Source: Methanolobus psychrotolerans
GTDB taxonomy: Archaea; Halobacteriota; Methanosarcinia; Methanosarcinales; Methanosarcinaceae
DNA: 64,000 nucleotides
Assembly (NCBI RefSeq): GCF_002243045.1
Contig: NZ_MBKP01000018.1
Span: forward strand, 1-64,000
Direction of reading: 5' to 3'
In this document: piece after piece, positions 33,999 through 61,906 of the stretch
How positions within the stretch are numbered: position 1 is the first letter of the stretch
How the letters are laid out: each line of letters opens with the position of its first letter
Notes under the pieces: generated by a model
What the model saw: only the letters and a program-made list of their open reading frames with translations
Databases searched by the model: none
Told to the model about the DNA's origin: nothing
Program-made: the position numbers and the translations under genes

Positions 33999-34107
33999 CA
34001 GGGAGTATGGTATGCTTTTGCAGTTTTTAATTGTTTGGGGTATATGGGTCAATGTTTCAAAGAGATAGTCCAAAAAATGTACTATTCCGATAAATAATAT
34101 TATACAA

Positions 34108-34120
34108 TTGTTTTTTATAT
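34108..34120 (+). promoter_or_regulatory. TATA box of pilin-like module A
   Basis: TTTTTTATATAA lies about 25-30 bp before the first possible start codons (34138 and 34150), implying a very short leader. Confidence 0.55.
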
Positions 34121-34149
34121 AATTGGATACTAACCAAATGTGGGGCATT

Positions 34150-34617
34150 ATGGATAGTAAAGGCCAGATCACAATAGATTATCTTATCAGCATCACAATT
34201 TTCCTGTTCGCAATTATCTTTGTATTTGACTATACTGCAGGAATATTCACACCTTTTCAATCCAATTCAGATGAAACTACACTAATCGCGGACAGGACTT
34301 CAACAATCCTTGTGGAAAAGATCCTGAGTGAAAAAGATGAAAATGCTCCTAACATGGTGAGCAAGACAAAGATATGTGTGTTCTTTACAGAACTTGACAC
34401 TAATTATGAAGGAACCGTTGATTACCTTGGCCTGAGTGGTTCTTTCCTTAGATACGACTTTAATGTCACATTAGAGAATGAAACAGGAATCATCGGTATG
34501 GCCGGGAAGACGATACCATCCCGTGTTAATGTAGGCCAGACAAAAAGGATAGTCTTACTAAAAGACGACAATACCGGAAATACAGAAGTTGCTATCATGT
34601 CATTCAGGGTGTGGTAA
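34150..34617 (+). CDS. Pilin-like protein, module A gene 1 (DUF7287-like)
   Basis: A 155-residue protein starting MDSKGQITIDYLISITIFLF. KGQ followed by a hydrophobic segment is a class III (archaellin/pilin) signal, with cleavage expected between G and Q, so the helix would become the packed core of a filament. The remainder is an extracellular domain with N-glycosylation sequons. The ATG at 34150 is preferred by alignment with the first gene of module B (MDEKGQIAVDFLLGISLFLI); ATG 34138 is possible. The N-terminal pattern resembles haloarchaeal DUF7287 proteins, from memory. Confidence 0.7.
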   Translation: MDSKGQITIDYLISITIFLFAIIFVFDYTAGIFTPFQSNSDETTLIADRTSTILVEKILSEKDENAPNMVSKTKICVFFTELDTNYEGTVDYLGLSGSFLRYDFNVTLENETGIIGMAGKTIPSRVNVGQTKRIVLLKDDNTGNTEVAIMSFRVW

Positions 34618-34624
34618 TATAGCC

Positions 34625-35233
34625 ATGCATTTCGTTTACATAAACAGGGACACACGTGCCCAGATGCACACCCTTGAAGCAGTAATGGCAGCACTGATAA
34701 TGCTTGGAGTTATAGTATTCACTGTTGAGGCAACTTCTCTCACGCCCCTTACATCATCTACTGCAAACGCTCATATTGAAGCCCAGTTACAGACCATGGG
34801 ACAGGACATGTTAAACACACTCTCCTATGCCCCTTATGGCCATGACTCTGACCTCAAGAACGACGTACGTAACTGGGAGGGAAAAGAGTATGTGTGGAAC
34901 GGGACAGCGTACCAGTCAAGAGACAACAACAAGACAAAACTGGTAAACAGCTCTTTTGAGGAGATATTTTTGTTTGTCGCAATTCCAAGAGGAATTGCCC
35001 ATAATGTTCATTTTACATGGATAAATGATGATGGTGTCACTGTTGCCAGTCCTTACATCTATAACGGCGACCCATCCGACAATGCTGTAATTATCTCAAA
35101 AAAAGTAGCTCTTTCAGATCATGAAGTAGGGAATACAACGCAGTTCATAACAAATACAGGCATACCTGATGCCGACATTAGTAGTGATTTTTACAACATA
35201 GTCAATGTCAAAATGACACTCTGGAGAATGTGA
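34625..35233 (+). CDS. Pilin-like protein, module A gene 2 (DUF7288-like)
   Basis: A 202-residue protein with a short N-terminus and RAQMHTLEAVMAALIMLGVIV, a class III-type signal (cleavage before Gln) followed by the pilin helix. The next residues, TSLTPLTSSTANAHIEAQLQ, match the pattern of haloarchaeal DUF7288 proteins as I remember them. The extracellular part includes several aromatic residues. The ATG at 34625 is chosen because only it places the signal near the terminus. It begins 8 bp after gene 1. Its counterpart in module B is the gene at 39906. Confidence 0.7.
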   Translation: MHFVYINRDTRAQMHTLEAVMAALIMLGVIVFTVEATSLTPLTSSTANAHIEAQLQTMGQDMLNTLSYAPYGHDSDLKNDVRNWEGKEYVWNGTAYQSRDNNKTKLVNSSFEEIFLFVAIPRGIAHNVHFTWINDDGVTVASPYIYNGDPSDNAVIISKKVALSDHEVGNTTQFITNTGIPDADISSDFYNIVNVKMTLWRM

Positions 35234-35253
35234 GAATATTGAAACGTGGTGGA

Positions 35254-36114
35254 ATGAGAAAGTCAGATGAACACGGGCAATTGCTTCTGGTTGCAGGATT
35301 TGCAGTCGGACTCGGCATAGTAGTACTTACCATCATGCTGAACAATGTAATATATGCCAGCAACATCGCCTCAGAATCAAGCATCGATACTTCACGTTAT
35401 GATATGGCAAATGCGATCCAGATGACTTCAGAAACTTATGAGGATGCTTACAGGTATGCAATGAAAGATGGAAGTTTCAATAGCACATCATTTGAGCAAT
35501 ACCTGGATTCATATGCAAAGCTGGCTTCCAAAAACTATGCAATATCAGGATTGACATTTAACTTTGAGAATAATACATTGCATGAACCATATTTCTCACA
35601 GAACGGACTTGCCAATGGAAAAGACAACTGGACAATTGCCAGTAACATCAACACTACAGATGTTTTTGTGTTGGAAATACCCGATACTTCAAAACTGGGG
35701 AACAGCTCCAACAGCATGACAATAACAATAACGAACAGTTCCGGCTTTCTGTGGTCCATTGAACTGTTCAGCTCAAGTGGATCTATAAATGTAACCGTGT
35801 CAGATCAGTCCTCTGAAATAGGAACATATATAGCTTCCAGCCAGATCAACATAACCGGGAATAAAATAGACTTCATTACAACCCCAAGTCCCTCATTCCA
35901 GTTCTCAGACCATACAGCAGGGAGTAACTATTCCATAAATATCCTCAATGGCAGCAATGCAGTGGGATATTGCACTTTTGCAGGACACATGACATCCGGG
36001 GAGCAGTTCACATTTGTACGGCACTGGGTGGGCAATCCTGTAATCACCATGCATTCCAGCGAGATGAGGATCAAACGCAATCTACCAATAACATTGCCAG
36101 GGAGGAATACATGA
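35254..36114 (+). CDS. Pilin-like protein, module A gene 3 (DUF7261-like)
   Basis: A 286-residue protein starting MRKSDEHGQLLLVAGFAVGL, with HGQ before the hydrophobic helix. The helix continues through IVVLTIMLNNVIYASNIA. The rest is an extracellular domain rich in Asn-X-Ser/Thr sequons, reaching a Cys-containing C-terminal loop. A GTG at 35230 overlaps the previous stop and could be the start; the ATG at 35254 aligns with the module B homologue (MRKNTKGQWIAL). The DUF7261 resemblance is from memory. Its end overlaps gene 4 by four bases. Confidence 0.65.
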   Translation: MRKSDEHGQLLLVAGFAVGLGIVVLTIMLNNVIYASNIASESSIDTSRYDMANAIQMTSETYEDAYRYAMKDGSFNSTSFEQYLDSYAKLASKNYAISGLTFNFENNTLHEPYFSQNGLANGKDNWTIASNINTTDVFVLEIPDTSKLGNSSNSMTITITNSSGFLWSIELFSSSGSINVTVSDQSSEIGTYIASSQINITGNKIDFITTPSPSFQFSDHTAGSNYSINILNGSNAVGYCTFAGHMTSGEQFTFVRHWVGNPVITMHSSEMRIKRNLPITLPGRNT

Positions 36115-36590
36115 AACTCCGGAACTTGCACCCTGATGAAAATGCAGTTTCAATCTCGATTGGATTCATACTGACTTTTTCGATTACAGTTCTCATGCTT
36201 GTAACAGTCCTAAGCTCATTTTATTCCCTAATGGACCAGGCACAGCAAACTGTGACCCGGGACGAATTCGAGATACATGGAACTGATATTACAGTACGTA
36301 TTGCAACTATTGACACCATAGTTGGGAGTGCGACTAACTCTGGGTCAGAGATCATGGAGATAACATACAAACTGTCCCTTCCCGGCAAGATTGCAGGAAA
36401 ACCATACTCAATAGAGTTTGACAACAACACAAAAGATATTGTGTTCTTGTCGGATGAAAGAGATGAAACGATAGTAAAAGTTCCATATTATACAGACAAC
36501 GTGGCAGTCCTTTCAACAACATTGTACAGCCTGAAGGAAGAATATGTGATAACATACGAACCCACGACAAACACAATACAAATATTCTGA
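36111..36590 (+). CDS. Pilin-like protein, module A gene 4 (DUF7266-like)
   Basis: A 159-residue protein with ENAVSISIGFILTFSITVLM near the start, the AVSxxxG pattern of archaeal type IV pilins followed by a long helix. The helix is followed by a charged helical stretch (QQTVTRDEFEIHGTDITVRI), then a beta-rich domain. The start is fixed by GGAGGAATAC directly before the ATG and by the ATGA overlap with gene 3. Short for a pilin, so it may be a minor or capping pilin; this is inference. Confidence 0.7.
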   Translation: MKLRNLHPDENAVSISIGFILTFSITVLMLVTVLSSFYSLMDQAQQTVTRDEFEIHGTDITVRIATIDTIVGSATNSGSEIMEITYKLSLPGKIAGKPYSIEFDNNTKDIVFLSDERDETIVKVPYYTDNVAVLSTTLYSLKEEYVITYEPTTNTIQIF

Positions 36591-36608
36591 ACATCTGAAG
36601 ACAACAAA

Positions 36609-37385
36609 ATGACAGGAAAAAAGAAAGTATTACTTTCCGATGATGCGGTTTCGGAAGTTGTGGACTTTAGCATAACACTTGGAATGATGCTTCTTGCTGT
36701 TGGCATCATAGCTGTTGCAGGATATCCTTTGGTACAGCACATGAAAGAAACAGGGCATCAGGAGAATATCCGCCAGAGTTTTGCAGTACTTACTCCCAAC
36801 ATGAACAAAATAGTAGCTGGTAAAGCCCCTTCCCAATCTATCGAATTGAAGATGCACGACGGCACAGTTTCTGTCACCGGGAACAGTTACATCAATGTTA
36901 CCATGGATACGTGGAATGGCTCCTCTTCCTCAATTGAAGCTCTTACTTTTGAGAGACAATTGCGAATGGTCCAAAATGAATATAAAGAGACATCTTTTGC
37001 CTATGAGAATACCGGCGCATGGGCCAAATATCCACAGGGAAGAACAGTAGAAGTATCAAAACCTGTTTTTGTGTATGATAACAGTTCTTTAGTAATACCG
37101 ATGGTGACAATCACGGGAAGCAAAGGAATATCCGGAGCAGGACTTATTCGTGTGGTAGCAGACGGTGGCCAGCTTTCTGTTGAAAGTTATGAGAATGTAT
37201 CCAGAGTGGAAATTACAATATCAAGTGATTACTACCAAGCATGGGAAAAATATCTGGATGATTCAATGGAGATGCAGATCATAGACATCAACACAAGCAC
37301 CAGGACTGTAAAAGCAGGAAAAAATTACAATCCTAATATCGATGTATTCATAACAGCATCTCCGATGAGTGTAACCGTAGAGTAA
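36609..37385 (+). CDS. Pilin-like protein, module A gene 5 (DUF7289-like)
   Basis: A 258-residue protein. A short charged N-terminus (MTGKKKVLLSDD) precedes AVSEVVDFSITLGMMLLAVG, the archaeal pilin-type signal and helix, and then GYPLVQHMKETGHQENIRQS. The body contains FAVLTPNMNKIVAGKAPSQS followed by a beta-rich domain with MVTITGSKGISGAG. Both blocks recur in gene 6 and in the last gene of module B, so these three are one paralogous family. Resembles haloarchaeal DUF7289 from memory. Confidence 0.72.
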   Translation: MTGKKKVLLSDDAVSEVVDFSITLGMMLLAVGIIAVAGYPLVQHMKETGHQENIRQSFAVLTPNMNKIVAGKAPSQSIELKMHDGTVSVTGNSYINVTMDTWNGSSSSIEALTFERQLRMVQNEYKETSFAYENTGAWAKYPQGRTVEVSKPVFVYDNSSLVIPMVTITGSKGISGAGLIRVVADGGQLSVESYENVSRVEITISSDYYQAWEKYLDDSMEMQIIDINTSTRTVKAGKNYNPNIDVFITASPMSVTVE

Positions 37386-37402
37386 AAATGGGTGACCATA
37401 TT

Positions 37403-38854
37403 ATGAAAAAGTTTGTTGGATCAGAAAACGCCGTTTCAGCTGTAGTTGGAATGATAATGATACTGGCACTCACAATTGCATCTGTAAGCATAATCTTCCT
37501 TTATGGGGTACCGACCATATATGAAATGCAGGATATGGCAAACGCACAGAAAGTCGAACAGGCATTTACAGTATTTGATTCAAGGACAAGTAAGGTTGCA
37601 CTGGGAGAATCCCCAAGCCAGACAACTTCATTTTCTATGATGGATGGAAACATAAGAGTTAATGGGGATAACACCTCCTATGAAGAAAGCAAGATTGTTG
37701 TCATCTCAGTTGAGATTGACGCTCCATGGTATAATAGTTTTGAACAGAACAGGCACAGGTGGAAAGCCTGGGAAAGTTACATCAGCAACCCTGATATGAA
37801 TCAGTTCAATGCTTCAATGGGAAGTATTGTTTACAGTAATAAGGACAGGATCATTGGATACGAAGGGGGAGGCGTATGGTCTAAATACCCTAATGGGAAA
37901 TCGGTCATGATCTCACCACCAGAATTCCATTACAATGGTGAAACTTTGACACTCCCAATAATGAAAATAGAAGGAGATTCCGTATACAGTGGAAAATCGG
38001 ATGTCGGTGTTACTATAAGCTCTGATAATATGCCTGTAATATTGTATCCTAATCCCTCTTCTGATTCAAGAAGAACTAATCCCCTTACATCCGATAAAGT
38101 AATCATTTACATTAAGAGTGAGTTTTACAACGCATGGGCAGATTATGCAAATTCACTTGCATACGCCACTGCCACTACCGATGATGCTAACAAGACAGCT
38201 ATCGTGGAACTGGAAGTTATTCCTGCTATGGGAAAAGATTCACTCAAACAAGCTTTTAAAGTAGGAGCAGTAAACCAGTTCAATTCTGCACCCATATACA
38301 ACTTCTCCCTTGACCTTGAAGCAAGGGCATCGCAGGGACTAAACCCGAGCAACTATCAGATAACAACGACATCAGGAACAAAGACCCTTACTTACACTCT
38401 TGCAAAGAAAGGGGGTGCCAACCAGCTTGAAATAGGTCTTGTATATGTGGATACAGCACCCGGCGGAGGGGTGGAAACATGGAGTGGAAATGGCGTATTT
38501 GATGTTAGCGGCTCAAAGGAAGACCAATCAACTACTGTAGATATGCTATCCACAACACTAACAATGAATTATGAAGAAAATAGTGATTTTTCATGGGGAA
38601 ACAATACATCCGTAAGCATTAACCCAGATATAGCACTTACTAAAGATCAGGATTTGCCTCTCTATAACCTGACACAACATTACTTAAAGCTCATTACAAT
38701 GAATGGGGCTGTGGTTTTCAACCTTCAACAGCCAGGAAAATCGGATCCTGTGGACTATGATGAATCAACTCTGACACTATATTACGACGGAATGCCAGGG
38801 AGCATAACATACCTTCATGTCAGCAGAAATGACCTCACAGCTACATTGAATTAG
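37403..38854 (+). CDS. Large pilin-like protein, module A gene 6 (DUF7289-like)
   Basis: A 483-residue relative of gene 5. ENAVSAVVGMIMILALTIAS gives the pilin signal and helix; FTVFDSRTSKVALGESPSQT then matches the shared block of the family. The first 260 residues align with gene 5. About 220 extra residues form a second, unrelated C-terminal domain with little charge and many Thr/Asn (TTSGTKTLTYTLAKKGGAN, VDTAPGGGVETWSGNGVF). The ATG at 37403 follows GGGTGACCATATT. It has no counterpart in module B and could be a tip or adhesin subunit; this is inference. Confidence 0.68.
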   Translation: MKKFVGSENAVSAVVGMIMILALTIASVSIIFLYGVPTIYEMQDMANAQKVEQAFTVFDSRTSKVALGESPSQTTSFSMMDGNIRVNGDNTSYEESKIVVISVEIDAPWYNSFEQNRHRWKAWESYISNPDMNQFNASMGSIVYSNKDRIIGYEGGGVWSKYPNGKSVMISPPEFHYNGETLTLPIMKIEGDSVYSGKSDVGVTISSDNMPVILYPNPSSDSRRTNPLTSDKVIIYIKSEFYNAWADYANSLAYATATTDDANKTAIVELEVIPAMGKDSLKQAFKVGAVNQFNSAPIYNFSLDLEARASQGLNPSNYQITTTSGTKTLTYTLAKKGGANQLEIGLVYVDTAPGGGVETWSGNGVFDVSGSKEDQSTTVDMLSTTLTMNYEENSDFSWGNNTSVSINPDIALTKDQDLPLYNLTQHYLKLITMNGAVVFNLQQPGKSDPVDYDESTLTLYYDGMPGSITYLHVSRNDLTATLN

Positions 38855-38927
38855 AGAAAAAACAGTGTGCTTAGAATTAAGTAGAAGTACATATACACCA
38901 CACATTATATTATTTATTTTAACAAAT

Positions 38928-38942
38928 CTTTTTTATATTATA
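38928..38942 (+). promoter_or_regulatory. TATA box of pilin-like module B
   Basis: TTTTTATATTATAT lies about 25 bp before the start codon at 38962, so the transcript is nearly leaderless, like that of module A. Confidence 0.55.
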
Positions 38943-38961
38943 TCCTACATATATACTTGCA

Positions 38962-39909
38962 ATGATGGACGAAAAGGGGCAGATAGCAGTAGATTTCCTA
39001 CTGGGGATATCATTATTCCTTATCGCTCTTACTTTCACTGTGCAATTTATTCCGGGTATGTTCATGTCCGGAACAGCAGGGGAGAGCAGCCTGGATTATA
39101 CAGCTTACCGTACGGCAACTGTCCTTGTCGAGGATACCGGATGGTGGGGCAACAGTACAAGTAGCGGAACTGACTGGGAGACTCAGCCTTCAAATATGAT
39201 GAGAATCGGACTTGCAGCAGACGATGAGCCAAAATCAAAGCTGACCAACAGTCCAAATCTGCTCTCAAAAGCCAAGATCGAACAGTTCATGCTCGTAAAT
39301 GAAAACACACTCATAGAGAATCTGGGCCTATACAACAACGTAGATAACACTCATTTTTCCTATGGGTACAACATATCCATAAACCAGGAAGGGGTCCCTC
39401 TTGTACTGAACAGCACTGCCATAATGAGAGGGAAACCAACACCATTGGACCGTGAAGTATCAAAGATAACAAGAGTGGTACTTGTAGAAACCGGGACCGT
39501 TGCTGTTCTTAAAGGAAGCGAACTGACAGGTGAAATAGCCTCTGAAGCAATCATCAATGTAACAGGACCATTTGAAGAGAACATAACCATACAGATAAGG
39601 AATCTTAATGGTGCAAACCATTCATTCCTTAATGCAGTAGTTGACAATGTCACATTAACACCATCTTCAGATTATACTATTTACAAAAAGACTGGTTGGA
39701 CAGATTTACCACTAAACGGCAGCTTAACAAGTACAGATTTGATATGCCTTAATCTGGACCATAACCGTTTCAACTTAAGTCAAGACTACAAACTTGAACT
39801 TAGGTTCAGCAATGTTACGCTGGACCCCGGACCTCCTTTTATAAGATATAATAACCATAGCAGCCCCCTTTACGAACCTGCATATCTTACTGTGGAGGTG
39901 TGGCAATGA
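38962..39909 (+). CDS. Pilin-like protein, module B gene 1 (DUF7287-like)
   Basis: A 315-residue protein starting MMDEKGQIAVDFLLGISLFL, with the KGQ class III signal and a helix through FTVQFIPGMF. It is the homologue of module A gene 1 but twice as long. The added C-terminal half is a beta-sandwich-like region (VTGPFEENITIQIRNLNGAN, KLELRFSNVTLDPGPPF) with many sequons. The last codons overlap the start of gene 2 by four bases (ATGA). Probably a surface-exposed minor pilin with an adhesive domain, by inference. Confidence 0.7.
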   Translation: MMDEKGQIAVDFLLGISLFLIALTFTVQFIPGMFMSGTAGESSLDYTAYRTATVLVEDTGWWGNSTSSGTDWETQPSNMMRIGLAADDEPKSKLTNSPNLLSKAKIEQFMLVNENTLIENLGLYNNVDNTHFSYGYNISINQEGVPLVLNSTAIMRGKPTPLDREVSKITRVVLVETGTVAVLKGSELTGEIASEAIINVTGPFEENITIQIRNLNGANHSFLNAVVDNVTLTPSSDYTIYKKTGWTDLPLNGSLTSTDLICLNLDHNRFNLSQDYKLELRFSNVTLDPGPPFIRYNNHSSPLYEPAYLTVEVWQ

Positions 39910-40418
39910 ACAATAAAGCACAGTTACATACCCTTGAAGGGTTGGGTGCGGCAGTCCTGATGACACTGACGATACTTGCTATCACCCAGAGCACCATGAT
40001 AGTCACCCCCCAGAATGCCCTGGCTGTGGATGTACAGCTAGAGCAGATGAGCTCTGACGCACTTGCAGTTCTTGATATTGCTTCAATGGCATCGGTGCAG
40101 TACAACCTGACAGAATGTATTGCAAGCTGGGATATGGCAGAACCCACATACCCTACAGGAAATCTTGATAATCTGGACACAGCACTTTCCTATCTTTTAC
40201 CCGGGATACTCTACAATGTAGATCTTGCTTACACAAAAAGCGGGAATCTCAATGTTGAAAAGGTCATTATCAACGGACCGCCCAGCACTAATGCAGTTGT
40301 TGCCAGACGTTATGTAACACTTACAAATCAGACGGTAAACAACATGGGTGGTGGATGGAGTCTGCAAGATGATGAACTAAGGGTTGTTGAAGTGAGGATG
40401 ACAGCATGGAAAGTATGA
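39906..40418 (+). CDS. Pilin-like protein, module B gene 2 (DUF7288-like)
   Basis: A 170-residue protein starting MNNKAQLHTLEGLGAAVLMT. KAQ plus the HTLEG motif and helix match module A gene 2 (RAQMHTLEAV). The following VQLEQMSSDALAVLDIASMA segment also matches. GGAGGTGTGGCA precedes the ATG at 39906, which overlaps the stop of gene 1. A GTG two codons earlier is less likely. Resembles haloarchaeal DUF7288 from memory. Confidence 0.72.
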   Translation: MNNKAQLHTLEGLGAAVLMTLTILAITQSTMIVTPQNALAVDVQLEQMSSDALAVLDIASMASVQYNLTECIASWDMAEPTYPTGNLDNLDTALSYLLPGILYNVDLAYTKSGNLNVEKVIINGPPSTNAVVARRYVTLTNQTVNNMGGGWSLQDDELRVVEVRMTAWKV

Positions 40419-40867
40419 GAAAGAACACAAAAGGACAGTGGATAGCTCTTTCAGGACTGGTCATATCACTTATACTCATAGGACTTGCCGCACTGGCAAA
40501 CCAGGCAGCAATAGCTGGATACCACTCCTCAAATGCAGCTCTTGAGTTCCCAAAAGAGAACATCCGCGAGTTGAACTCGCATACAAGGGACAATGCCAGG
40601 ATAATAAAGGACCTTTCTTTTGAGATAAACAGTACCAGCAACGAAACAATACCTTTCATCTTTGAGCAGTTATTCGATAATTACAGTACACAGATACAAA
40701 ACCTGTACGCATCACATGGTGAAACAGCAGATGTTTCACTGGTTTCCATTAACTCTACAAACGGGACGTTCGGTATTGATGATATTGACCTTATATTTGT
40801 AAATATCACATACAATGATGGAAGTACCCATTATGTGTCGCAGCCTGAGATTATCGAGGTGAGATAA
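40406..40867 (+). CDS. Pilin-like protein, module B gene 3 (DUF7261-like)
   Basis: A 153-residue protein with RKNTKGQWIALSGLVISLIL, a KGQ signal and helix as in module A gene 3 but with a much shorter ectodomain (153 against 286 residues). GAGG lies eight bases before the ATG at 40406; ATG 40415, overlapping the gene 2 stop, would also serve. The domain after the helix is mostly helical and charged (SHTRDNARIIKDLSFEINST). Confidence 0.66.
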   Translation: MESMRKNTKGQWIALSGLVISLILIGLAALANQAAIAGYHSSNAALEFPKENIRELNSHTRDNARIIKDLSFEINSTSNETIPFIFEQLFDNYSTQIQNLYASHGETADVSLVSINSTNGTFGIDDIDLIFVNITYNDGSTHYVSQPEIIEVR

Positions 40868-41310
40868 TGAGAAAGCTGTCAAAAAATGAAGAGGGAGTAT
40901 CTATTTTATTTGAGTATATATTGTTCTCACTTATATGCATTGGTTTTTTTATGATAATAACCACCAATTCTGATGATATATTCATGAAAACTCCGAATGA
41001 AGCTGTAATGCAGGATGAGATGAGCGATATAGGCAACATGATGAGCACGATGATAACTGACATGTACCTTATTCTCCCTGAGAACGGTTATATTGATACA
41101 GAATACAGGATTCCGGCAAAAGCAGGCCGGGAAGAGTACATGATTAATGCAGATATTGCATATACAGACCAGATAATAGAAGTTATATCCTCATCATCGG
41201 GAAAGAAAGTAAGAGTTACGATCGGTGGAATTGCAACGACAATGCCGATCAACGGTACTGCCCTGAGCAGTTCCACAAATCATGTGATCAGCTATGACTC
41301 GAGAAGATAG
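40867..41310 (+). CDS. Pilin-like protein, module B gene 4 (DUF7266-like)
   Basis: A 147-residue protein. MRKLSKNEEGVSILFEYILF gives an EGVS signal and hydrophobic helix comparable to module A gene 4. The conserved continuation is MQDEMSDIGNMMSTMITDMY against the DEFEIHGTDITVRIATID segment of A4. The start overlaps the previous stop by one base (TAATG). The last 17 bases overlap the start of gene 5. Confidence 0.64.
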   Translation: MRKLSKNEEGVSILFEYILFSLICIGFFMIITTNSDDIFMKTPNEAVMQDEMSDIGNMMSTMITDMYLILPENGYIDTEYRIPAKAGREEYMINADIAYTDQIIEVISSSSGKKVRVTIGGIATTMPINGTALSSSTNHVISYDSRR

Positions 41311-42034
41311 AAGGAATGCAGCAGTTTCCGAAACACTGGGATATATCCTGTTGTTTGGGATTGTGACTTTATCAATGGGCGTTATATATGCAATCGGATA
41401 TCCGGCATTACAGTCAAATATCGATGCAAACATATTCGAGAGCGCAGAACAGAATTTTATTGTACTCCAGAGCAATATGGACAGGGTGGCTTTTGACCAG
41501 ACACCTGTAAAGGTGCTCAAATTAAAGCTCCAGAGCTCTGCAATTGCAGTGAACAACGAATCCTCGATGACCATCACCTACGGGGCAAACCCGCCAGAGG
41601 TAATCCACACGGGGGAGATACAGTTCCAGAAGGACAGCAAGACACTGACCTATGAGATGGGGGGTGTCTTTAAGAAATATCCCCGTGAGGCTACGGTGAT
41701 GGTATCAAAGCCCCCTATATATTCTAGCAAGATCAACGGTGTTGACGTGATGACCATTGGGCTTGTTTCAGTAAACGGAAATTCCTACATATCAGGAAAG
41801 GGGATAGCCACAGTTACCCTTCAACATAACTCAAGTACCATGAATAAGACCTCCGTGCCAACAAATGTTACAGTTACTATAAACAGTGCACATGCCACAA
41901 AGTGGGAGGAATACCTGGAAGAGATCGGTTTCTCCATTAACACTACCAGTACCACAGCAAAATCCGTTACTGGCCATAAGAATGATACTATGCTGATCCT
42001 CAGCAAGCATGTGGTTGATGTAGACATTTCCTGA
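41294..42034 (+). CDS. Pilin-like protein, module B gene 5 (DUF7289-like)
   Basis: A 246-residue protein. RRNAAVSETLGYILLFGIVT is the pilin signal and helix. QNFIVLQSNMDRVAFDQTPV matches the shared block in genes A5 and A6, and the VNGNSYISGKGIATVTL stretch matches their GSKGISGAG block. It ends with an extracellular beta domain. Last gene of module B, followed by a pyrimidine-rich end. Its order after the other four matches that in module A. Confidence 0.72.
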   Translation: MTREDRRNAAVSETLGYILLFGIVTLSMGVIYAIGYPALQSNIDANIFESAEQNFIVLQSNMDRVAFDQTPVKVLKLKLQSSAIAVNNESSMTITYGANPPEVIHTGEIQFQKDSKTLTYEMGGVFKKYPREATVMVSKPPIYSSKINGVDVMTIGLVSVNGNSYISGKGIATVTLQHNSSTMNKTSVPTNVTVTINSAHATKWEEYLEEIGFSINTTSTTAKSVTGHKNDTMLILSKHVVDVDIS

Positions 42035-42404: not shown

Positions 42405-45400
42405 TTAACTAATACTTATCATTCCTTTTGGTCTGACATATAAGACTTTGCTGGCTACAAGGATATCGCTTACATTGTTCATGTTATATGCATATGCAGT
42501 GATGTAAACCTTGCCTGCGATAGCACTTGTGAAATCAACAGTATCTGATCCGGAAACATTATATATCGGGTTTTCATCAAAATATCCGAGGTTACTATAA
42601 AAATATACATGGGCATTTCCAGGATCTCCCATATTGTCCGTGAGTGTCAGAGTGACAGTTGTGGTGTTATCTATTCGAATTATATTCCTGTCGGGATCTA
42701 TATCCAGAAACGCCAGCGGCACAGAAGACATCGATGCACCACCGCCACCCAGACTTGTACTTCCTCCTCCCCCTACAGTGACCGTGATGTTCTCGCCACT
42801 TAAGTCAGTATATGTTACTGTGGATGTTGGCATGATGATAGGCACATAGCCTGCACCATCTACCCTCATCTGATACCATATGCCCCATTTATCCCCGGCT
42901 CCCATGTTTGGCAAGCGCCATTCAAGTATGGATTTTCCACTGCTTGTTGTGATGCTTGGCTCTGCATTTCCTCTGGGAGGTGCCTTTGGAGTGGCAAACA
43001 AAGTAACATTGCCAGTGGTAGCGTTGCTGCTTCCCGAGATATATGTTGCTTTTGCCACAGATAAGGGAGTGACATAATTGTAAGGCACATGCAGGTCCAG
43101 AATAGGACCACTTGCCGAGAAATTAGTTATCTGCATTGCTATGCCTTTAAAGATATCTTTGAGAACACTGGAATTTGGTGCAAAGTAGTATTCTCCACCT
43201 GTTATGGATGCAATTTCCTGAAGCACCTGATCGACTTCGGATTCCGTGTTGCCAAATCCTACGGTATAGATAACGGTGTTGTTGTCCCTCGCCCTGTATG
43301 CCTCCTCCAACAGGGAGTGGTAACCTGCATTATCTATCCCATCCGTCATCAAAACTATTGTGGAGTTACCTTCCAGCGAATAAAGCTCATTGTTTGCAAC
43401 GAACAGACCTTCATCTATGGCTGTTAGCCCGTCAGCAGTAATCGTATCTATTGCATTGCTCAGATGTGAGATGGAATCATTTTCCAGAGTAGATGTCACA
43501 CTGGCAGTCCACTGGTTCCATGAGACCGGAGTGCTTTCTACTGATGTGTCGGGTATGGAGAACGCAATGTCGAAACATTCGTAATTCCATAAAGAAGACG
43601 GCTCAACCTGCGAAGTGGAACCAAATGAAGAACCATCCCATTTCTGGATATTCAGATCTGTATTTCCATCGGATGTCATGAGGAAAATATCATTAGAAAC
43701 TGGGTCAGGGGTTAGCTGTGCCCACCTGGTATAGCCACTGCTTCCCAGATCGAGTGCTGAAGATTCACTACTCCATGAACCAGACCATGTTCTATATTTT
43801 GGAACGGTGCTCTGGTCTCCCCATACCACCAGCCCTTTGCCTGACTGTTGCTCAAATGCAACATCAACAGATCTGACATCAGTGCGATATGTGCTATATT
43901 CAACGATTCCAAACTGTGAAGAAGGCCATGATGAGCCATCCCAGACACCTACATAGACATCATAAGCAGAATCTTGGGAAGCCATAATTATCCTATTTGA
44001 ATTAGTGTCTGCTGCGAGTTTTACCCAGTAGACAGCATTAGAGAACGAATAAAGGTTCTGTGCACTTCCCCACGAGTTACCATTCCAGATACGATATTTA
44101 ATATAGCTCGAATCAGCCCAGACTACCATAGCTCTGCCAGTACCTTGTTCGTAGATCACATCAAAACATTGGTAACTTGCAGTTCTGGCTGTGTTCGTTA
44201 TCTGTGCAACATTGCCCCATGAAGAGCCATCCCAGACCTGTGCACGTATGTCCGATGAACTGTCAAGAGTCACAAGGACCATCTCATCAGATTTAGGATT
44301 TGCTTCAAGTCTCATCCACTGGATAGTACCTGCACCTGTATTTGAAGAGCTCACTGCAGCCTCAGAGCTCCATGAGGAGCCATCCCACACTCTGTATCGG
44401 GGAATACGGGCATGCTGGTTCAAATCCATATAAACTACAACAGCATCACCAGACAATTGCTCGTACTTCACATCAAAACCTCTTCTTGTGCTCTGACTCA
44501 ATTCAGTGCTAAGTTCCTGCACTGAACTCCAAGAGTTACCGTCCCATGTCTGGGCATTGACGTCTTTTTGATCATCACCTGTAACCATGATGATCTCAGG
44601 CCTGACAGGGCTTGATTCCAGAAGTACAAAATTCGGCACACCATTTATGAAATTAGAATAACTTTCCATGGACCACTGTGAACCTTCCCATGTCCTGAAA
44701 CGAGGAGTACCTTTTCCACTCTCATCACTGCCATCGTAATAAGCTGTCATGATACTATTCAGAAGAGAACTTGAAACACTGATGATGAAGTGAGTATCAG
44801 TCCCTACATATGGACCTTTGGCAATTTCCAGAAGATAGGTTTTTCCTGCGTAAAGAGGAGAACTTACCTGACAAACCCCTGCGTTAGTAGTTGAAGAGTT
44901 CAGAAGGTCTATGCCTTCATAAAGAGAAACGTTCATCTCGGAAGTGTCATCCCATGAAATGTCAAAAACATAAAGACCGTTTGTTTCAACTTCAAAGTAG
45001 CCGGACCAGCTACCATTGTCAAGCAGGTAGCTTTCCTGGCTGTCGGAAAGAGAGATACTTTCAACACTGTAAAGAGCCAGACCTGCTTTGTCCCCGCGGC
45101 TTTCATCAAAACTTGAGATGAATGCATGAGAAGATAATTTGGCTGCACTGATCTTATCTATATAAGTGGATACGGTGAATTTCTCAGTTCCTCTGCCAGT
45201 ACCTGTAACATTTATTGTCCAGTTACCTTTTTCCACGGAATCATTATCAGGATAAAGATAAGATAATGGCTCTATCCAGATGTATTCGGAAGTATTCCCG
45301 TTCGGATAATATCCGGTCGTATCATTGTTAAGTCCATATACCTTTCCTGAAGGGCTTGTCAGTTGAAGATTAAGATTCGAAGAACTGTTCTCCCAATCAA

Positions 45401-48344
45401 GCTGCACCTTAAAGTCATTGATAGTTTCATTGATAAGGAAAGTATCTTCAAAAGTGTCTCCTGTCATTTTTATTACACCAAAAGAACAATCATAGCCAGC
45501 AGCACTCAAATCAGTATTTGCAGGATAATATTCAATTCTGGTACCGTTCCATAATACCTCAACATTCATTACCCTGCTCTCCCAGTCACCCAGACCTTTA
45601 TAGGCATGATAGTCATAGAAAGTTATAGCATTGGTACCTGTTTCCAGATAATTACTAATATCGTATTCATAATCCTCCCACTGTTGATTGATACCTGTAT
45701 TATATGAAGGAATCAAAGCAAAATTTGCTCCGTTTATTCGGATAAGACATTCTCCTGCACTTGAACCACCATAATCGGAACCTGCATCAAAGACAGTATC
45801 CAGGTCATATCCTTCGAATTTGAGCACATATTCCTGCAACTCTAAAGAGCCGCTGAAACTATAATCATATGGAGTAAAACCTTCTGTCCCATACTCCACT
45901 GAGCGTACATCATAATCGCTTATTTCCTGTGCGATGGAATTGTACACATCACGTAGTTCCGCACTTGTGGGTGCGTTGTAGTAAACACCACCTGTCTCAA
46001 AAGCTATACGCTGAAGAACAGGTTCGTCAATATAGTCCGTAGCCCCCAACCCTATTGTGTATATGGTTATATCATTTGCCTTGGCTGTTGCAACGGCATT
46101 CTGACCCTCGCGATCCGAACCTGCATTGGATACTCCATCTGTTAACACGACCATTACTTTTTTTGATTCGGGGCGCCCATTTATAAGCATGCTGTTCGCA
46201 TCTGCCATTGCATCACCCATGGCAGTAGAACCATCAGCTACTAAGACATCGATGACACCTTTAACGGTGTTCTTATTGTTATAGGAATTAAGAAGAGTCA
46301 TACCTATGTCTATTCTGCTGGATGTTGAGAATGAGACCACTCCTGCCTGTGAATTGGATGCAAGATTGTCTACAAATTCCTGTGCAGCTATTTTTGCATC
46401 TGTCATCGGTTGCTCGGGAGAATTACCTAAGAATTTCATACTTCCTGAACGGTCAAGAACAAGCACAACATCAAGAGGAGTTCCAGCATAATAGTCAGGA
46501 TCCATACTTCCCGAACGGTCAAGGACCAGCATTGCACTTGCTGCAGGTCTTATTATGGGAAGTTCACCTTCTATAGAAATAATTGTTGTTACATTTACGA
46601 CTGAACCTGAATTTACCAAAACCGGTTTTACATCCAAATACACACTCATGAAGGGTTCAGCTTTAACACTTATACTAGTTGAAAGACTGATATTGCCACT
46701 TGTAGCCACAATGGTCGTATTTCCCGAAACGTTGCCGGTGAATGTACCATATATTCGTCCGTCAGGGTCAGTTGTAGCATTGATGAGATCGATCGCACTG
46801 ATACCATCAACTATGAGCGTGCCTACTGTTGTGTTGGTATTGTTTAGAGTTACGTGGATGTTTGGCAATGAATGACCCCATTGGTCCAGCGCAACAAGAG
46901 TGATAGCTGATTCATGATTTCCATTCAGATCATGGGCAAGAACTGCATTGGGAACAGAATAAAGGTCCATAGAAGTAAGAGGACCTGCTGTAAAATAGAG
47001 TGTTGTAGTATTGCTAAAATTAGTATATCCGGATTGGTCCTTGTAGGTTGCTGTTATTGAAATGGATTCGAGGTAAGGTGTCGGACCTACGATAGTATTT
47101 GCACGACCCTGGCTGTTCAGAGGCACGATAACTATATTGCTGCTGGCTGTTGTGAAACGGACCTGCTCCTTGATAGGGGTTGTAAGAGGTAAAATAGGGT
47201 TAAGGAACTGGTCAACGGGCTTGGCAGACAAGACATAGGACTCCTGGTTATTTGAAAGAGCATGTTCCGGGGTGTAAGTAAGGAACAGATTATCTATTTC
47301 ATCTGCGATACCTGTTATAGTAATATTACCCTGGAGAGAGGCATTCACCACAGCAACTGTTATGACATTTGCACCTGCTCTTTTATCGGTCCTGAAAACC
47401 GTAGCAAACTGCCCATTTGTATCCGTGGTTCCGCTATAATATAAAAGAGATGCTGAATTATATGCAACCGGGCTATTATAAAGAGTATTTGATGGGGACG
47501 TAACGCTGAGAGTCAGATTTACTTCAGGTACAGGATTATCGAACATATCATAAACGCGGACATACATATTGTTAGTAGTGTTCACTGTATATTCATCGTT
47601 AAAGACAGCCCCCATCCTTGATGGCTCTGCGGGAAGGACCAACAATTCAGTATAGTTGGTGGCTGATCCAGCAGTGGATGTGATTGTAACATTCCCTGCA
47701 AGTGTTGAATTCAGGCTGAAAAATGAACTTCCTGAGGATGACGTAACAGGTAATTCTGAAATCGTCCAGTTTATGTCATCTTCATCATCAAGTGTTATCT
47801 TAATTAATGTTATATTATCCGGATATATCAAAATATTGTTCTGTTGTGCCACACTTCCGGAATAATCAGTTATGACAACATCCAGATAAACTTGTTCATT
47901 TGGATTAGTATTACCAAAAATATCCACTGGTGTGAAAGTAATGTTTGTGGTGTTGCCCGCAACATTCACAGGATAGTCAACATCTGTCAGGAGAGAGCTG
48001 GCAGCCAGTGGCAGGAAAGTAACGTTTGTCAGATTAAAGGCACTACCTGAACTTGCATTAATATGTGCTGTTCCTGCAACTGTAGAATTGATACTTATTT
48101 CTGCAACCCCTGATGAATTGGAGTATGTAAAAGCAGAACTCAGAATTCCCAGATCTGTTGTGAAATTCACCAGTGAATGGTTCACAGGTGTTCCGTTATC
48201 TTTAATCATTACGCTGATATTGATGGAATCTCCTGCGTTACTTTGAACATCCATTGTCATAAACTCTACATCCAGCGCCAAAGCTGAAAACGAGAATGCA
48301 AGAAAAACTGCAGATATAAATATACACTTTTTTAAATGCTCCAT
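42405..48344 (-). CDS. Giant secreted protein with nested VWA domains and propeller-like repeats
   Basis: A 1979-residue protein. Residues 1-24 form a signal peptide. Residues 25-600 hold about five Ig-like (Big/invasin-type) repeats. A first MIDAS motif, VLDRSGSM (Asp609), is followed after 14 residues by a second (Asp631) that opens a full VWA domain (to about 812). Beta-sandwich and P-domain-like regions follow (820-1063). Residues 1064-1093 (KISAAKLSSHAFISSFDESR) look like the next piece of a VWA fold, then comes a PPC-like region and eight W-DGSSW repeats (1205-1590). Residues 1605-1740 complete a VWA domain (LSNAIDTITADGLTA, VLMTDGIDNAG). Residues 1745-1979 are Ig-like. No C-terminal anchor is visible. 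GAGGTATTTCT precedes the ATG. Likely a calcium/metal-dependent adhesin; function is inferred. Confidence 0.85.
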   Translation of the reverse strand: MEHLKKCIFISAVFLAFSFSALALDVEFMTMDVQSNAGDSINISVMIKDNGTPVNHSLVNFTTDLGILSSAFTYSNSSGVAEISINSTVAGTAHINASSGSAFNLTNVTFLPLAASSLLTDVDYPVNVAGNTTNITFTPVDIFGNTNPNEQVYLDVVITDYSGSVAQQNNILIYPDNITLIKITLDDEDDINWTISELPVTSSSGSSFFSLNSTLAGNVTITSTAGSATNYTELLVLPAEPSRMGAVFNDEYTVNTTNNMYVRVYDMFDNPVPEVNLTLSVTSPSNTLYNSPVAYNSASLLYYSGTTDTNGQFATVFRTDKRAGANVITVAVVNASLQGNITITGIADEIDNLFLTYTPEHALSNNQESYVLSAKPVDQFLNPILPLTTPIKEQVRFTTASSNIVIVPLNSQGRANTIVGPTPYLESISITATYKDQSGYTNFSNTTTLYFTAGPLTSMDLYSVPNAVLAHDLNGNHESAITLVALDQWGHSLPNIHVTLNNTNTTVGTLIVDGISAIDLINATTDPDGRIYGTFTGNVSGNTTIVATSGNISLSTSISVKAEPFMSVYLDVKPVLVNSGSVVNVTTIISIEGELPIIRPAASAMLVLDRSGSMDPDYYAGTPLDVVLVLDRSGSMKFLGNSPEQPMTDAKIAAQEFVDNLASNSQAGVVSFSTSSRIDIGMTLLNSYNNKNTVKGVIDVLVADGSTAMGDAMADANSMLINGRPESKKVMVVLTDGVSNAGSDREGQNAVATAKANDITIYTIGLGATDYIDEPVLQRIAFETGGVYYNAPTSAELRDVYNSIAQEISDYDVRSVEYGTEGFTPYDYSFSGSLELQEYVLKFEGYDLDTVFDAGSDYGGSSAGECLIRINGANFALIPSYNTGINQQWEDYEYDISNYLETGTNAITFYDYHAYKGLGDWESRVMNVEVLWNGTRIEYYPANTDLSAAGYDCSFGVIKMTGDTFEDTFLINETINDFKVQLDWENSSSNLNLQLTSPSGKVYGLNNDTTGYYPNGNTSEYIWIEPLSYLYPDNDSVEKGNWTINVTGTGRGTEKFTVSTYIDKISAAKLSSHAFISSFDESRGDKAGLALYSVESISLSDSQESYLLDNGSWSGYFEVETNGLYVFDISWDDTSEMNVSLYEGIDLLNSSTTNAGVCQVSSPLYAGKTYLLEIAKGPYVGTDTHFIISVSSSLLNSIMTAYYDGSDESGKGTPRFRTWEGSQWSMESYSNFINGVPNFVLLESSPVRPEIIMVTGDDQKDVNAQTWDGNSWSSVQELSTELSQSTRRGFDVKYEQLSGDAVVVYMDLNQHARIPRYRVWDGSSWSSEAAVSSSNTGAGTIQWMRLEANPKSDEMVLVTLDSSSDIRAQVWDGSSWGNVAQITNTARTASYQCFDVIYEQGTGRAMVVWADSSYIKYRIWNGNSWGSAQNLYSFSNAVYWVKLAADTNSNRIIMASQDSAYDVYVGVWDGSSWPSSQFGIVEYSTYRTDVRSVDVAFEQQSGKGLVVWGDQSTVPKYRTWSGSWSSESSALDLGSSGYTRWAQLTPDPVSNDIFLMTSDGNTDLNIQKWDGSSFGSTSQVEPSSLWNYECFDIAFSIPDTSVESTPVSWNQWTASVTSTLENDSISHLSNAIDTITADGLTAIDEGLFVANNELYSLEGNSTIVLMTDGIDNAGYHSLLEEAYRARDNNTVIYTVGFGNTESEVDQVLQEIASITGGEYYFAPNSSVLKDIFKGIAMQITNFSASGPILDLHVPYNYVTPLSVAKATYISGSSNATTGNVTLFATPKAPPRGNAEPSITTSSGKSILEWRLPNMGAGDKWGIWYQMRVDGAGYVPIIMPTSTVTYTDLSGENITVTVGGGGSTSLGGGGASMSSVPLAFLDIDPDRNIIRIDNTTTVTLTLTDNMGDPGNAHVYFYSNLGYFDENPIYNVSGSDTVDFTSAIAGKVYITAYAYNMNNVSDILVASKVLYVRPKGMISIS

Positions 48345-48556: not shown

Positions 48557-48988
48557 ATGAAGAAAGCAATCATCGAGACCGATAAAGGAAATATTGTTCT
48601 GGAACTGTTCGAGAAGGATGCACCAAAGACTGTGGCAAACTTTGAGAAACTTATCAAGGAAGGATTCTATGACGGACTTACTTTCCACAGGGTACTCCCA
48701 AACTTTGTGATCCAGGGCGGATGCCCGAAAGGCAATGGTACAGGCGGCCCGGGATACTCAATAAAATGTGAGACAAAAGGCAATCCACGCAAACATGGCA
48801 AAGGTGCACTCTCAATGGCACACGCCGGAAAGGACACAGGCGGAAGCCAGTTCTTTATCACACACTCCCCACAACCACACCTTGATGGCGTACACACTGT
48901 CTTTGGCCAGGTAATCGAAGGCATGGAAGTCGTCAACAGGATAAAGGCAAAAGATGTGATGAGAAAGGTCACTATCGTTGAAGAGTAA
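48557..48988 (+). CDS. Peptidyl-prolyl cis-trans isomerase, cyclophilin type
   Basis: A 143-residue single-domain cyclophilin that speeds proline isomerisation during folding. Active-site segments are [15 protein letters not shown] (catalytic Arg and Gln), [16 protein letters not shown] and [11 protein letters not shown]. No signal peptide, so it acts in the cytoplasm. AGAGGTAATACTC precedes the ATG; a TATA-like CTTAAATC lies about 40-50 bp upstream. It is divergent from the giant VWA gene. Confidence 0.95.
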
Positions 48989-49172: not shown

Positions 49173-49230
49173 CGAAGTATGAGCCTTTCTTCAGCGTTAA
49201 TTGCGGCCAATAAAAAAGAGAGTGATAACA

Positions 49231-50031
49231 ATGGTACTAAACAAAAAACTCATTCTGGCTATTGCAGCCATATTGACTATCGTACTATTTGTAAGCGGAT
49301 GCACTGACAAGGATTATGGACAGTCACAGATCACAAAGATAACAATATCTGCTTCTGCAGTATTTACAGAGGCTTTCACAGATATAGAAGAGGATTTTGA
49401 AACTGAGTATCCTGAAATAGATCTCATAATGAACTTTGGGAATGCTGGTTCTCTAAGGATGCAAATCGAAGGAGGGGCTCCCATAGACGTGTTCGCTCCG
49501 GCAGATACGAATCACATGGATATCCTAGCCTCTAAAGGATTGATTTACAACTATTCACAAAAAAAGCTTGCAGGGAACTCCTTGGTGATGATAGTTCCAA
49601 AAGGCAACATACTTAATATTTCAAGTATGGAGGATCTGATCCGGCCAGAAGTGAAACGAATAGCACTCAGTGATACAGAAGCTTCAGCTGTGGGGAGGTA
49701 TGCAAAACAATCTCTGAGCGAGGAAGGAGTATGGAATGGCGTGCAAAATAAGCTGTTAACGGGTGATACGGTGAAAAACTCACTGGTCTATGTGGAGCGG
49801 GGAGAAGCAGATGCAGGATTTGTGTTCATTACAGATGTATCATCCGCCAAACCGGACACAATTGAAATGATAACTGTAGTCCCTGTGAGCACGCCTATCG
49901 CTTACCCCATAGCTGTAGTCTCATCCACCATGCACAGTGAAGAATCCCAGCTCTTCATAGATTTTGTCACAGGAGAAAAAGGTAAATCCATACTGGAACA
50001 ATATGGTTTCAGTATTCCTCAAAACGGATGA
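49231..50031 (+). CDS. modA: Molybdate/tungstate ABC transporter substrate-binding lipoprotein
   Basis: A 266-residue periplasmic-type binding protein tethered by lipid: the N-terminus ends FVSGC, a lipobox. Family marks: ITISASAVFTEAFTDI, NFGNAGSLRMQIEGGAPIDV, FAPADTNHMDIL, LVMIVPKGN and RGEADAGFVFITD. It captures molybdate or tungstate for the molybdopterin enzymes, such as formylmethanofuran dehydrogenase. GAGAGTGATAACA precedes the ATG at 49231. It is followed by modB and modC. Confidence 0.92.
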   Translation: MVLNKKLILAIAAILTIVLFVSGCTDKDYGQSQITKITISASAVFTEAFTDIEEDFETEYPEIDLIMNFGNAGSLRMQIEGGAPIDVFAPADTNHMDILASKGLIYNYSQKKLAGNSLVMIVPKGNILNISSMEDLIRPEVKRIALSDTEASAVGRYAKQSLSEEGVWNGVQNKLLTGDTVKNSLVYVERGEADAGFVFITDVSSAKPDTIEMITVVPVSTPIAYPIAVVSSTMHSEESQLFIDFVTGEKGKSILEQYGFSIPQNG

Positions 50032-50038
50032 ACTGAAA

Positions 50039-50707
50039 ATGCTTGAGCAGGTATGGTTTCCCCTTGTAATCACGCTGAAAATAGCAATTACATCAACTCT
50101 TTTGGTCGCACTGATAGGTGTGATCATTTCATATTTGCTTGCAAGACGTGATTTCAGGGGGAAATGGATTGCAGATGTTCTTGTTACTTTGCCCCTTGTG
50201 CTCCCTCCTACGGTGACAGGATATGTTCTTGTAGTTTTATTGGGAAGGAACGGAAGTCTTGGGGAGATATTGTACGACATCACAGGCTGGACCATACTCT
50301 TTACATGGGAGGCTGCAGTAATTGCAGCATTCATAGTATCCCTGCCCCTGATGGTCAAGACCACTACTGCCGCCATTGAGGCTGTGGACCGGGATTTTGA
50401 ATACGCTGCATTCACCCTTGGAAGAAAAGAACTTGAGACGGCACTTTTTATCACCCTCCCTCTTGCTAAAAAGGGAATACTTGCAGGCACTGTCCTGAGC
50501 TTTGCAAGGGCTGTGGGAGAATTTGGCGCAACACTAATGGTTGCTGGAAATATTCCCGGAAGAACTAACACAATGTCAATTTCGATATATAGCGCATTCC
50601 AGGCAGGAAATAACGAGCTTGCTAACCTGCTGGTAATCATACTTATAACAATGTCTTTTGCCTCCATGGCAATAACTGCAAAACTTGTCAATAGCTGGAA
50701 AATATGA
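50039..50707 (+). CDS. modB: Molybdate/tungstate ABC transporter permease
   Basis: A 222-residue membrane protein with five to six spans. The cytoplasmic EAA loop (AAFTLGRKELETALFITLPLAKKG) docks the ATPase. The sequence LARRDFRGKWIADVLVTLPL and LPPTVTGYVLVVLLG match the ModB family. The ATG at 50039 is preferred, with GGATGA seven bases upstream and the conserved WFPLVITLKIA right after; ATG 50003 would overlap modA by 29 bases. It is ten bases before modC. Confidence 0.92.
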   Translation: MLEQVWFPLVITLKIAITSTLLVALIGVIISYLLARRDFRGKWIADVLVTLPLVLPPTVTGYVLVVLLGRNGSLGEILYDITGWTILFTWEAAVIAAFIVSLPLMVKTTTAAIEAVDRDFEYAAFTLGRKELETALFITLPLAKKGILAGTVLSFARAVGEFGATLMVAGNIPGRTNTMSISIYSAFQAGNNELANLLVIILITMSFASMAITAKLVNSWKI

Positions 50708-50716
50708 GGTGATATT

Positions 50717-61712: not shown

Positions 61713-61906
61713 CTTACGTCCTCTTTTAAAAATACACAATATATATTATATAAAATATAATATAGATATATATGATTACCCCCTAAAAAAGAGCTATAAG
61801 CAGAGCAAGATTAATATTCGATATGTAGAGATTCTATGTTGAGACAAAACAAAAGGGTATGAAGTAACTATCAGATTTTTGAAAACAGCATTTACGGAGA
61901 AAAAAC

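Follow-up and report, generated by a model that had tools for sequence, protein, structure and literature searches.

Minor pilins and the large protein PilY1, which combines a type I signal with a vWA domain and a propeller, prime and cap the type IVa pili of bacteria, and Myxococcus has three alternative clusters of minor pilin and PilY1 genes (PMC7541494). In archaea, the loci of clade 2/4C, such as those of the Haloferax PilB4 and PilB1 types, begin with PilB and TadC genes, after which a number of pilin genes come (Makarova et al., 2016; PMC4858521). They include a duplicated immunoglobulin (Ig)-like minor pilin of 250-550 amino acids (aa), arCOG02911, which by its description fits the family DUF7289. 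For clade 1 only, the authors suggested a PilY-like tip adhesin (DUF2341), without settling what the remaining pilins of clade 2 do (PMC4858521). Here we describe two adjacent modules of pilin-like genes, A and B, and a neighbouring gene for a giant vWA/propeller protein. They were found in a stretch of 64,000 nucleotides of Methanolobus psychrotolerans (NZ_MBKP01000018.1, positions 1 to 64,000; hereafter the window), which belongs to contig C34 of a genome (G000) of 3.16 Mb. The relatives of gene A2 that carry names also place it within or beside Methanolobus.

The Methanolobus sets resemble the clade 2 loci in that pilin sets and motors recombine (PMC4858521). They differ from these loci in being detached from any motor, and in that at least two ancient paralogous cassettes lie side by side, one of which is tied to a vWA/propeller protein. 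The clustering of several minor pilins with one large Sec-exported vWA/propeller protein recalls FimU-PilVWX(E) and PilY1, and as in Myxococcus several alternative clusters occur per genome (PMC7541494). Unlike the bacterial complex, however, the machine is an archaeal PilB-TadC machine without a secretin. By analogy, the Methanolobus system may work like the minor pilin-PilY1 complex; it is likened to that complex by gene clustering and domain content and is not classed as a member. The reading that we favour, with a probability of roughly 0.6, is that the modules are minor-pilin tip cassettes and that module B displays the giant protein as a PilY1-like adhesin.

Two modules of pilin-like genes with the same order

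Module A spans 34150-38854 with six genes and module B 38965-42034 with five. Both lie on the + strand, and neighbours among their eleven open reading frames overlap or nearly do so. A preliminary description of this DNA had proposed two modules with the same gene order; all eleven genes were found and their families pair between A and B. In module A (the slash marks the putative cleavage point), A1 (34150-34617) encodes a DUF7287 pilin-like protein (Pfam, 4.9e-32) with the class III motif SKG/QITIDYL, A2 (34625-35233) a DUF7288 protein (5.6e-47; TRA/QMHTLEA), A4 (36111-36590) a DUF7266 protein (2.4e-12; ENA/VSISIGF) and A5 (36609-37385) a DUF7289 protein (1.7e-24; DDA/VSEVVDF). The last gene, A6 (37388-38854), again encodes a DUF7289 pilin-like protein (2.5e-24), here with a C-terminal DUF7308 (3e-21). 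In module B, DUF7287 is represented by B1 (38965-39909; 5.2e-18), which has an additional C-terminal beta-sandwich at residues 176-283, DUF7288 by B2 (39906-40418; 1.4e-25; NKA/QLHTLEG) and DUF7289 by B5 (41294-42034; 6.3e-34). These eight products pass the Pfam cut-off.

The remaining three are more divergent. A3 (35254-36114; EHG/QLLLVAG) matched DUF7261 with 6.9e-5 and 23.6 bits, which is below the curated cut-off of 27 bits, and its family is kept in the order. B3 (40415-40867; TKG/QWIALSG) and B4 (40867-41310; EEG/VSILFEY), the counterparts of DUF7261 and DUF7266, did not match any Pfam model; they reach the A3 and A4 families through profiles built with relatives (1e-7 for B4 against A4). 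Judged by these profiles, B3 and B4 are homologs of A3 and A4. The family names given in the preliminary description were correct, DUF7287, DUF7288, DUF7266 and DUF7289 by Pfam and DUF7261 below its cut-off. It had also named, as a result that would speak against it, a placement of the two modules in unrelated families; the family searches put both in the same families. None of the nine products that were tested received a name from NCBIfam. In a search of the open-access literature the DUF numbers of these families were not mentioned in any paper, and arCOG02911 was found in one only.

All signals were compared with a class III pattern that consists of a charged N-terminus, a G or A before the cleavage point and then an unbroken hydrophobic helix. 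Such a motif preceded the N-terminal helix in 417/469 homologs of the eleven types versus 6/62 controls, which were unrelated proteins with an N-terminal helix, and at least four of these six are themselves pilin- or archaellum-like. B5 of the window is missed by the pattern owing to an extra Ala, RRNAAVSETLGY. The class III signals and hydrophobic helices that had been claimed are thus present, and the signals of the modules are of the pilin type instead of ordinary Sec signals. The AlphaFold model of B1 (mean pLDDT 86) consists of an N-terminal helix (residues 3-28) and a beta-rich ectodomain; its best matches in the PDB are unrelated beta-sandwiches with Z scores of at most 6.7, which is within the noise of the tool, and these were not used. 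Taken together, the module products are very probably type IV pilin-like proteins.

Glycosylation sequons had been described as abundant in all ectodomains. Relative to shuffled sequences they are clearly enriched in B1 (11 sequons, z 3.4) and B3 (6, z 2.7) and marginally so in A3, A5 and B5; no enrichment over shuffles was seen in A1, A2, A4, A6, B2 and B4, so that the claim stands for part of the products only. In front of both modules a BRE-like element (B recognition element; AACAAAT/ACAATT) and a TATA box are situated about 25-35 nucleotides (nt) before the start codon. For module A the BRE/TATA-like box is at 34108-34123 (+; TTTTTATATAAT), 27-38 nt before the ATG, and it is aligned and conserved in Methanolobus relatives. 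The one of module B is at 38921-38943 (+; AACAAAT...TTTTTATATTATAT) and is likewise conserved. Both are recognisable in most Methanolobus relatives, which agrees with the near-leaderless TATA promoters proposed before. Because of the short distance to the start codon, the leader of both modules is likely to be short or absent.

The order of the genes is kept in dozens of genomes and is therefore not due to chance; synteny with relatives, including haloarchaeal loci, confirmed the fixed series. DUF7288 was present in 217/296 sampled Halobacteriota genomes and was not found in the Methanosarcina-type genomes sampled. A recent tandem duplication of the modules was considered and rejected, as the DUF7288 tree places B2 in a clade of its own apart from A2. 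This clade contains members from several families (support 0.92), which indicates that the modules are old paralogs.

A giant vWA/propeller protein linked to module B

Directly downstream of module B and convergent with it lies a gene (42405-48344, - strand) for a protein of 1979 aa. Besides a Sec-like signal, it has Big_1 repeats, a vWA domain, a beta-propeller and a second, apparently split vWA domain according to Pfam, AlphaFold and fold searches. Its N-terminus is hydrophobic and, as judged by eye, Sec-like: MEHLKKCIFISAVFLAFSFSALA. Pfam detected the Big_1 repeats and two vWA matches, and no PilY1-type model was among its matches. For the AlphaFold model of residues 585-1770, the fold search gave Z scores of 26 for a vWA domain and of 24-26 for a propeller with seven blades; the best matches include sugar-binding lectins as well as SpaC and Mfa5, which are proteins of pilus tips. 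An extra strand with the motif DRSGSM precedes the vWA domain (residues about 603-614), and the C-terminal half of the second vWA domain, 38% identical to the first, follows the propeller (about 1625-1745). Across 18 homologs, neither set of metal-site residues varies. The simplest reading would be that the second vWA domain is split by a complete vWA domain, further domains and the propeller. When this outer domain was searched as a joined piece, Pfam matched its C-terminal half only; the part with the first strand is assigned from DRSGSM, a motif that is repeated and invariant. To our knowledge, no nested vWA domain of such a kind has been solved.

The protein shares a Sec-type signal, a vWA domain and a propeller with PilY1. 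It differs in that its propeller is not C-terminal, the order of the domains being Ig repeats, vWA, propeller and the split second vWA. SpaC of Lacticaseibacillus rhamnosus and Mfa5 of Porphyromonas gingivalis, its structural matches, are also large vWA proteins and are found at pilus tips, but they belong to sortase-type and type V pili, respectively, of which the assembly mechanism is unrelated.

Among the Methanolobus genomes, the giant gene was found in 15/15 with module B and in 0/12 without it (nominal all-or-none probability 6e-8). The tree of the flanking gene Mre11 shows at least seven changes between presence and absence of module B among 21 genomes (L164, of which the B status is unverified, was left out). 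As module B is scattered on this tree, shared descent alone is insufficient to explain its match with the giant gene, although Mre11, which flanks the locus, may itself have been exchanged. One genome (G008) contains two B sets and two giant genes. Cultured species that possess module B include M. profundi, M. bombayensis and M. vulcani. Outside Methanolobus the pair was observed in G208, G200, G112 and G317, and as a contig-edge fragment only in G302. At a more distant locus (L134) a gene for a vWA/Big_1 protein opens the B series, with which it shares the strand.

Domain fusions were seen in other genomes. At 6536-8812 of L139, inside an A-type module, a DUF7261 pilin is fused to a vWA domain. 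The DUF7288 pilins of B modules of family f3 are fused to FG-GAP, a propeller-type (integrin-like) repeat, in proteins of 1500-1680 aa (L065, 5003-9538; L066, 3920-8608; L067, 4616-9661). The latter possibly represent a pilin and an adhesin in one protein. Both fusions resemble the modular pilins PilB and PilC of Streptococcus sanguinis, in which an adhesive domain is grafted on a type IV pilin stem (PMC8179133; PMC9934059). In the Methanolobus locus, by contrast, the adhesive part is a separate protein, and the pilin families differ. Adjacency, a shared operon and domain fusion together indicate that the pilin sets carry adhesive domains.

Five minor pilins in a fixed order had led to the expectation of either a pseudopilus or an adhesin tip. 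This expectation is supported overall, and the giant gene, which was overlooked at that time, is the strongest evidence for the adhesin tip. If the modules were instead the pseudopilus sets of an exporter resembling the type II secretion system (T2SS), the giant and similar surface proteins would be the cargo of a short piston. Such an exporter would account for the fixed order of five small pilin-like genes in modules that come with a motor and lack a major pilin; the giant protein linked to them might be a substrate, and PilY1 has itself been described as analogous to T2SS substrates (PMC7541494). However, Methanolobus is not known to possess an outer membrane that requires such a piston, fusion of vWA or propeller-type domains to pilin stems (L139, L065-L067) suits display rather than release, and PilA-type major pilins are encoded in the genome. 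We regard this possibility as quite improbable.

According to a proposal by Makarova and co-workers, who did not settle the roles of such pilins, every one of them could form part of the filament structure (PMC4858521). Accordingly, the five pilins could be ordinary subunits along a mixed filament and the giant an independent S-layer or adhesin gene in the same cassette, which would agree with its convergent position outside the operon in Methanolobus. Given that the related vWA protein of L134 comes first in a B series on the same strand, that domain fusions occur and that the five types, with their strong differences in size and ectodomain, are unlike repeating shaft subunits, this seems unlikely.

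The interpretation of the modules as tip cassettes that display the giant protein has to be weighed against a number of observations. Three of these come from genomes outside Methanolobus: some 60 kb separate module B from the giant gene in G196, no giant gene accompanies module B in G175, and in G316 a giant gene at a contig edge was found without module B. No vWA gene was adjacent to the B modules of the Methanohalophilus type or of families f4 and f20 in the stretches that were read. Neighbouring genes can be co-inherited without a joint function, and the giant gene is on the opposite strand. A search of the PDB with the B1 model did not match any type IV pilin. Assembly, tip position, binding and the use of the motor are steps that we infer from the gene families, signals, order, promoters and linkage observed here.

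Motor and other pilus components

Searches of contig C34 for a secretion ATPase, TadC and a prepilin peptidase gave no match, in line with the earlier statement that the window lacks motor genes and that the machine must be shared or encoded elsewhere. The genome contains nine matches to the secretion ATPase family, none of them on C34. PilB-TadC loci are present on four other contigs: those on C46 and C62 are orphan pairs without an adjoining pilin gene, and those on C71 and C85 each have a DUF7289-like pilin. The locus on C85 (L053) comprises PilB-TadC, the DUF7289-like pilin and a Pilin_N-type pilin between what appear to be transposase-like flanks, and it is present in only some relatives.

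In haloarchaeal loci of seven families (L125, L128-L132 and L156) the order is PilB-TadC-A1-A2-(A3)-A4-A5, with the motor usually directly upstream of the series. In L137 and L138 (family f9) and L083 (family f2) TadC-PilB is convergent with the module, and the modules of Methanosarcinaceae have no motor nearby. For all complete PilB and TadC proteins encoded next to modules elsewhere, the best match in the genome studied here is C62. An ortholog of the C62 TadC, defined by at least 56% identity over the main match (other TadC types reach at most 39%), was found in 48/74 Methanosarcinaceae genomes. It is present in 47/47 genomes that contain DUF7288 versus 1/27 that lack it, and this single genome, G316, is the one with a giant gene at a contig edge.

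The pair on C62 is thus probably the main motor of the modules. Several results speak for caution. In PilB trees of all rows, long branches prevent the haloarchaeal proteins from being resolved as C62 orthologs. C62 is also the best match for the pairs of L077 and L078, which the tree places with C71, so that the best-match ranking alone is not decisive. Genomes that lack both C62 and the modules belong mainly to Methanosarcina and to two genera next to it, so that one or two losses may account for them. As the absences are mostly in one clade, the co-occurrence is good but not conclusive evidence. Another pair (C46, C71 or C85), or several pairs interchangeably, might drive the modules instead, for which one could invoke that C46 is likewise an orphan pair, that C71 and C85 lie beside DUF7289-like pilins and a statement in PMC6491452. 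We give this little credence, since C62 scores best against every complete PilB and TadC next to a module and tracks module presence across the family, and since TadC of the C71 type is present even in Methanosarcina, where modules are absent.

The genome contains one gene for a prepilin peptidase (Peptidase_A24), on contig C102. Of its PilA-type pilin genes, eight exceed the cut-off; four of these (Pilin_N) are clustered on contig C52 (7133-9153) and likely encode the major pilins. Together these genes round off the set of pilus components.

Proposed mechanism

In the mechanism that we propose, each module would contribute minor type IV pilins of five kinds, which would be cleaved by the prepilin peptidase of the genome. 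Joined by their N-terminal helices, the pilins would form a short, heteromeric stem; this stem would prime and cap a type IV-like pilus and remain at its tip. The shaft would be built from PilA-type major pilins encoded elsewhere, of which there are several, including the four clustered on C52, and the orphan pair of PilB and TadC on C62 would power assembly. The vWA/propeller protein of 1979 residues, exported by Sec, would be held and displayed by the stem of module B; it might act as an adhesin and possibly sense force, in a role comparable to that of minor pilins and PilY1 in bacteria. Module A would give rise to a different tip without a vWA partner. Gain, loss and shuffling of modules at one chromosomal site would provide an exchangeable tip on a shared machine.

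If this is true, five families without a known function gain a testable role as an archaeal set for pilus tips or priming, and an archaeal counterpart to the minor pilin-PilY1 complex of bacteria is supplied. A motor would be assigned to pilin sets that lie far from motor genes, filament tips would evolve as exchangeable cassettes, and surface recognition and force sensing would become testable in methanogens attached to sediment or other cells. A broader and rather more tentative version is that Halobacteriota have PilY1-like tips independent of those of bacteria, with DUF7287-7288-7261-7266-7289 as a universal tip or priming set. The Methanolobus cassettes, with or without the giant split-vWA adhesin, would then be swapped rapidly at one site and served by one shared motor.

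Dynamics of the locus and neighbouring genes

In many Methanolobus genomes the modules are situated between mre11-rad50 and a cyclophilin gene. The arrangements at this site include A-B-giant, A-A', A'-giant-B-A, B-giant alone and larger arrays. These varied arrangements, together with the old B clade of DUF7288, make the locus look like a site of tip-cassette exchange.

In this region (33999-34149 and 48557-48988 of the window, and the equivalent sites of Methanolobus relatives), pilin modules are gained, lost and duplicated fast. Beside the cyclophilin gene, genes for a solute-binding protein and an ABC transporter (49201-51835, + strand) were found, for which no link to pili was seen. Further along, on the - strand, a tandem pair of paralogous genes (54043-57774 and 57945-61739) encodes surface proteins in which a papain-type peptidase is combined with Lectin_like, PKD and NosD/beta-helix domains.

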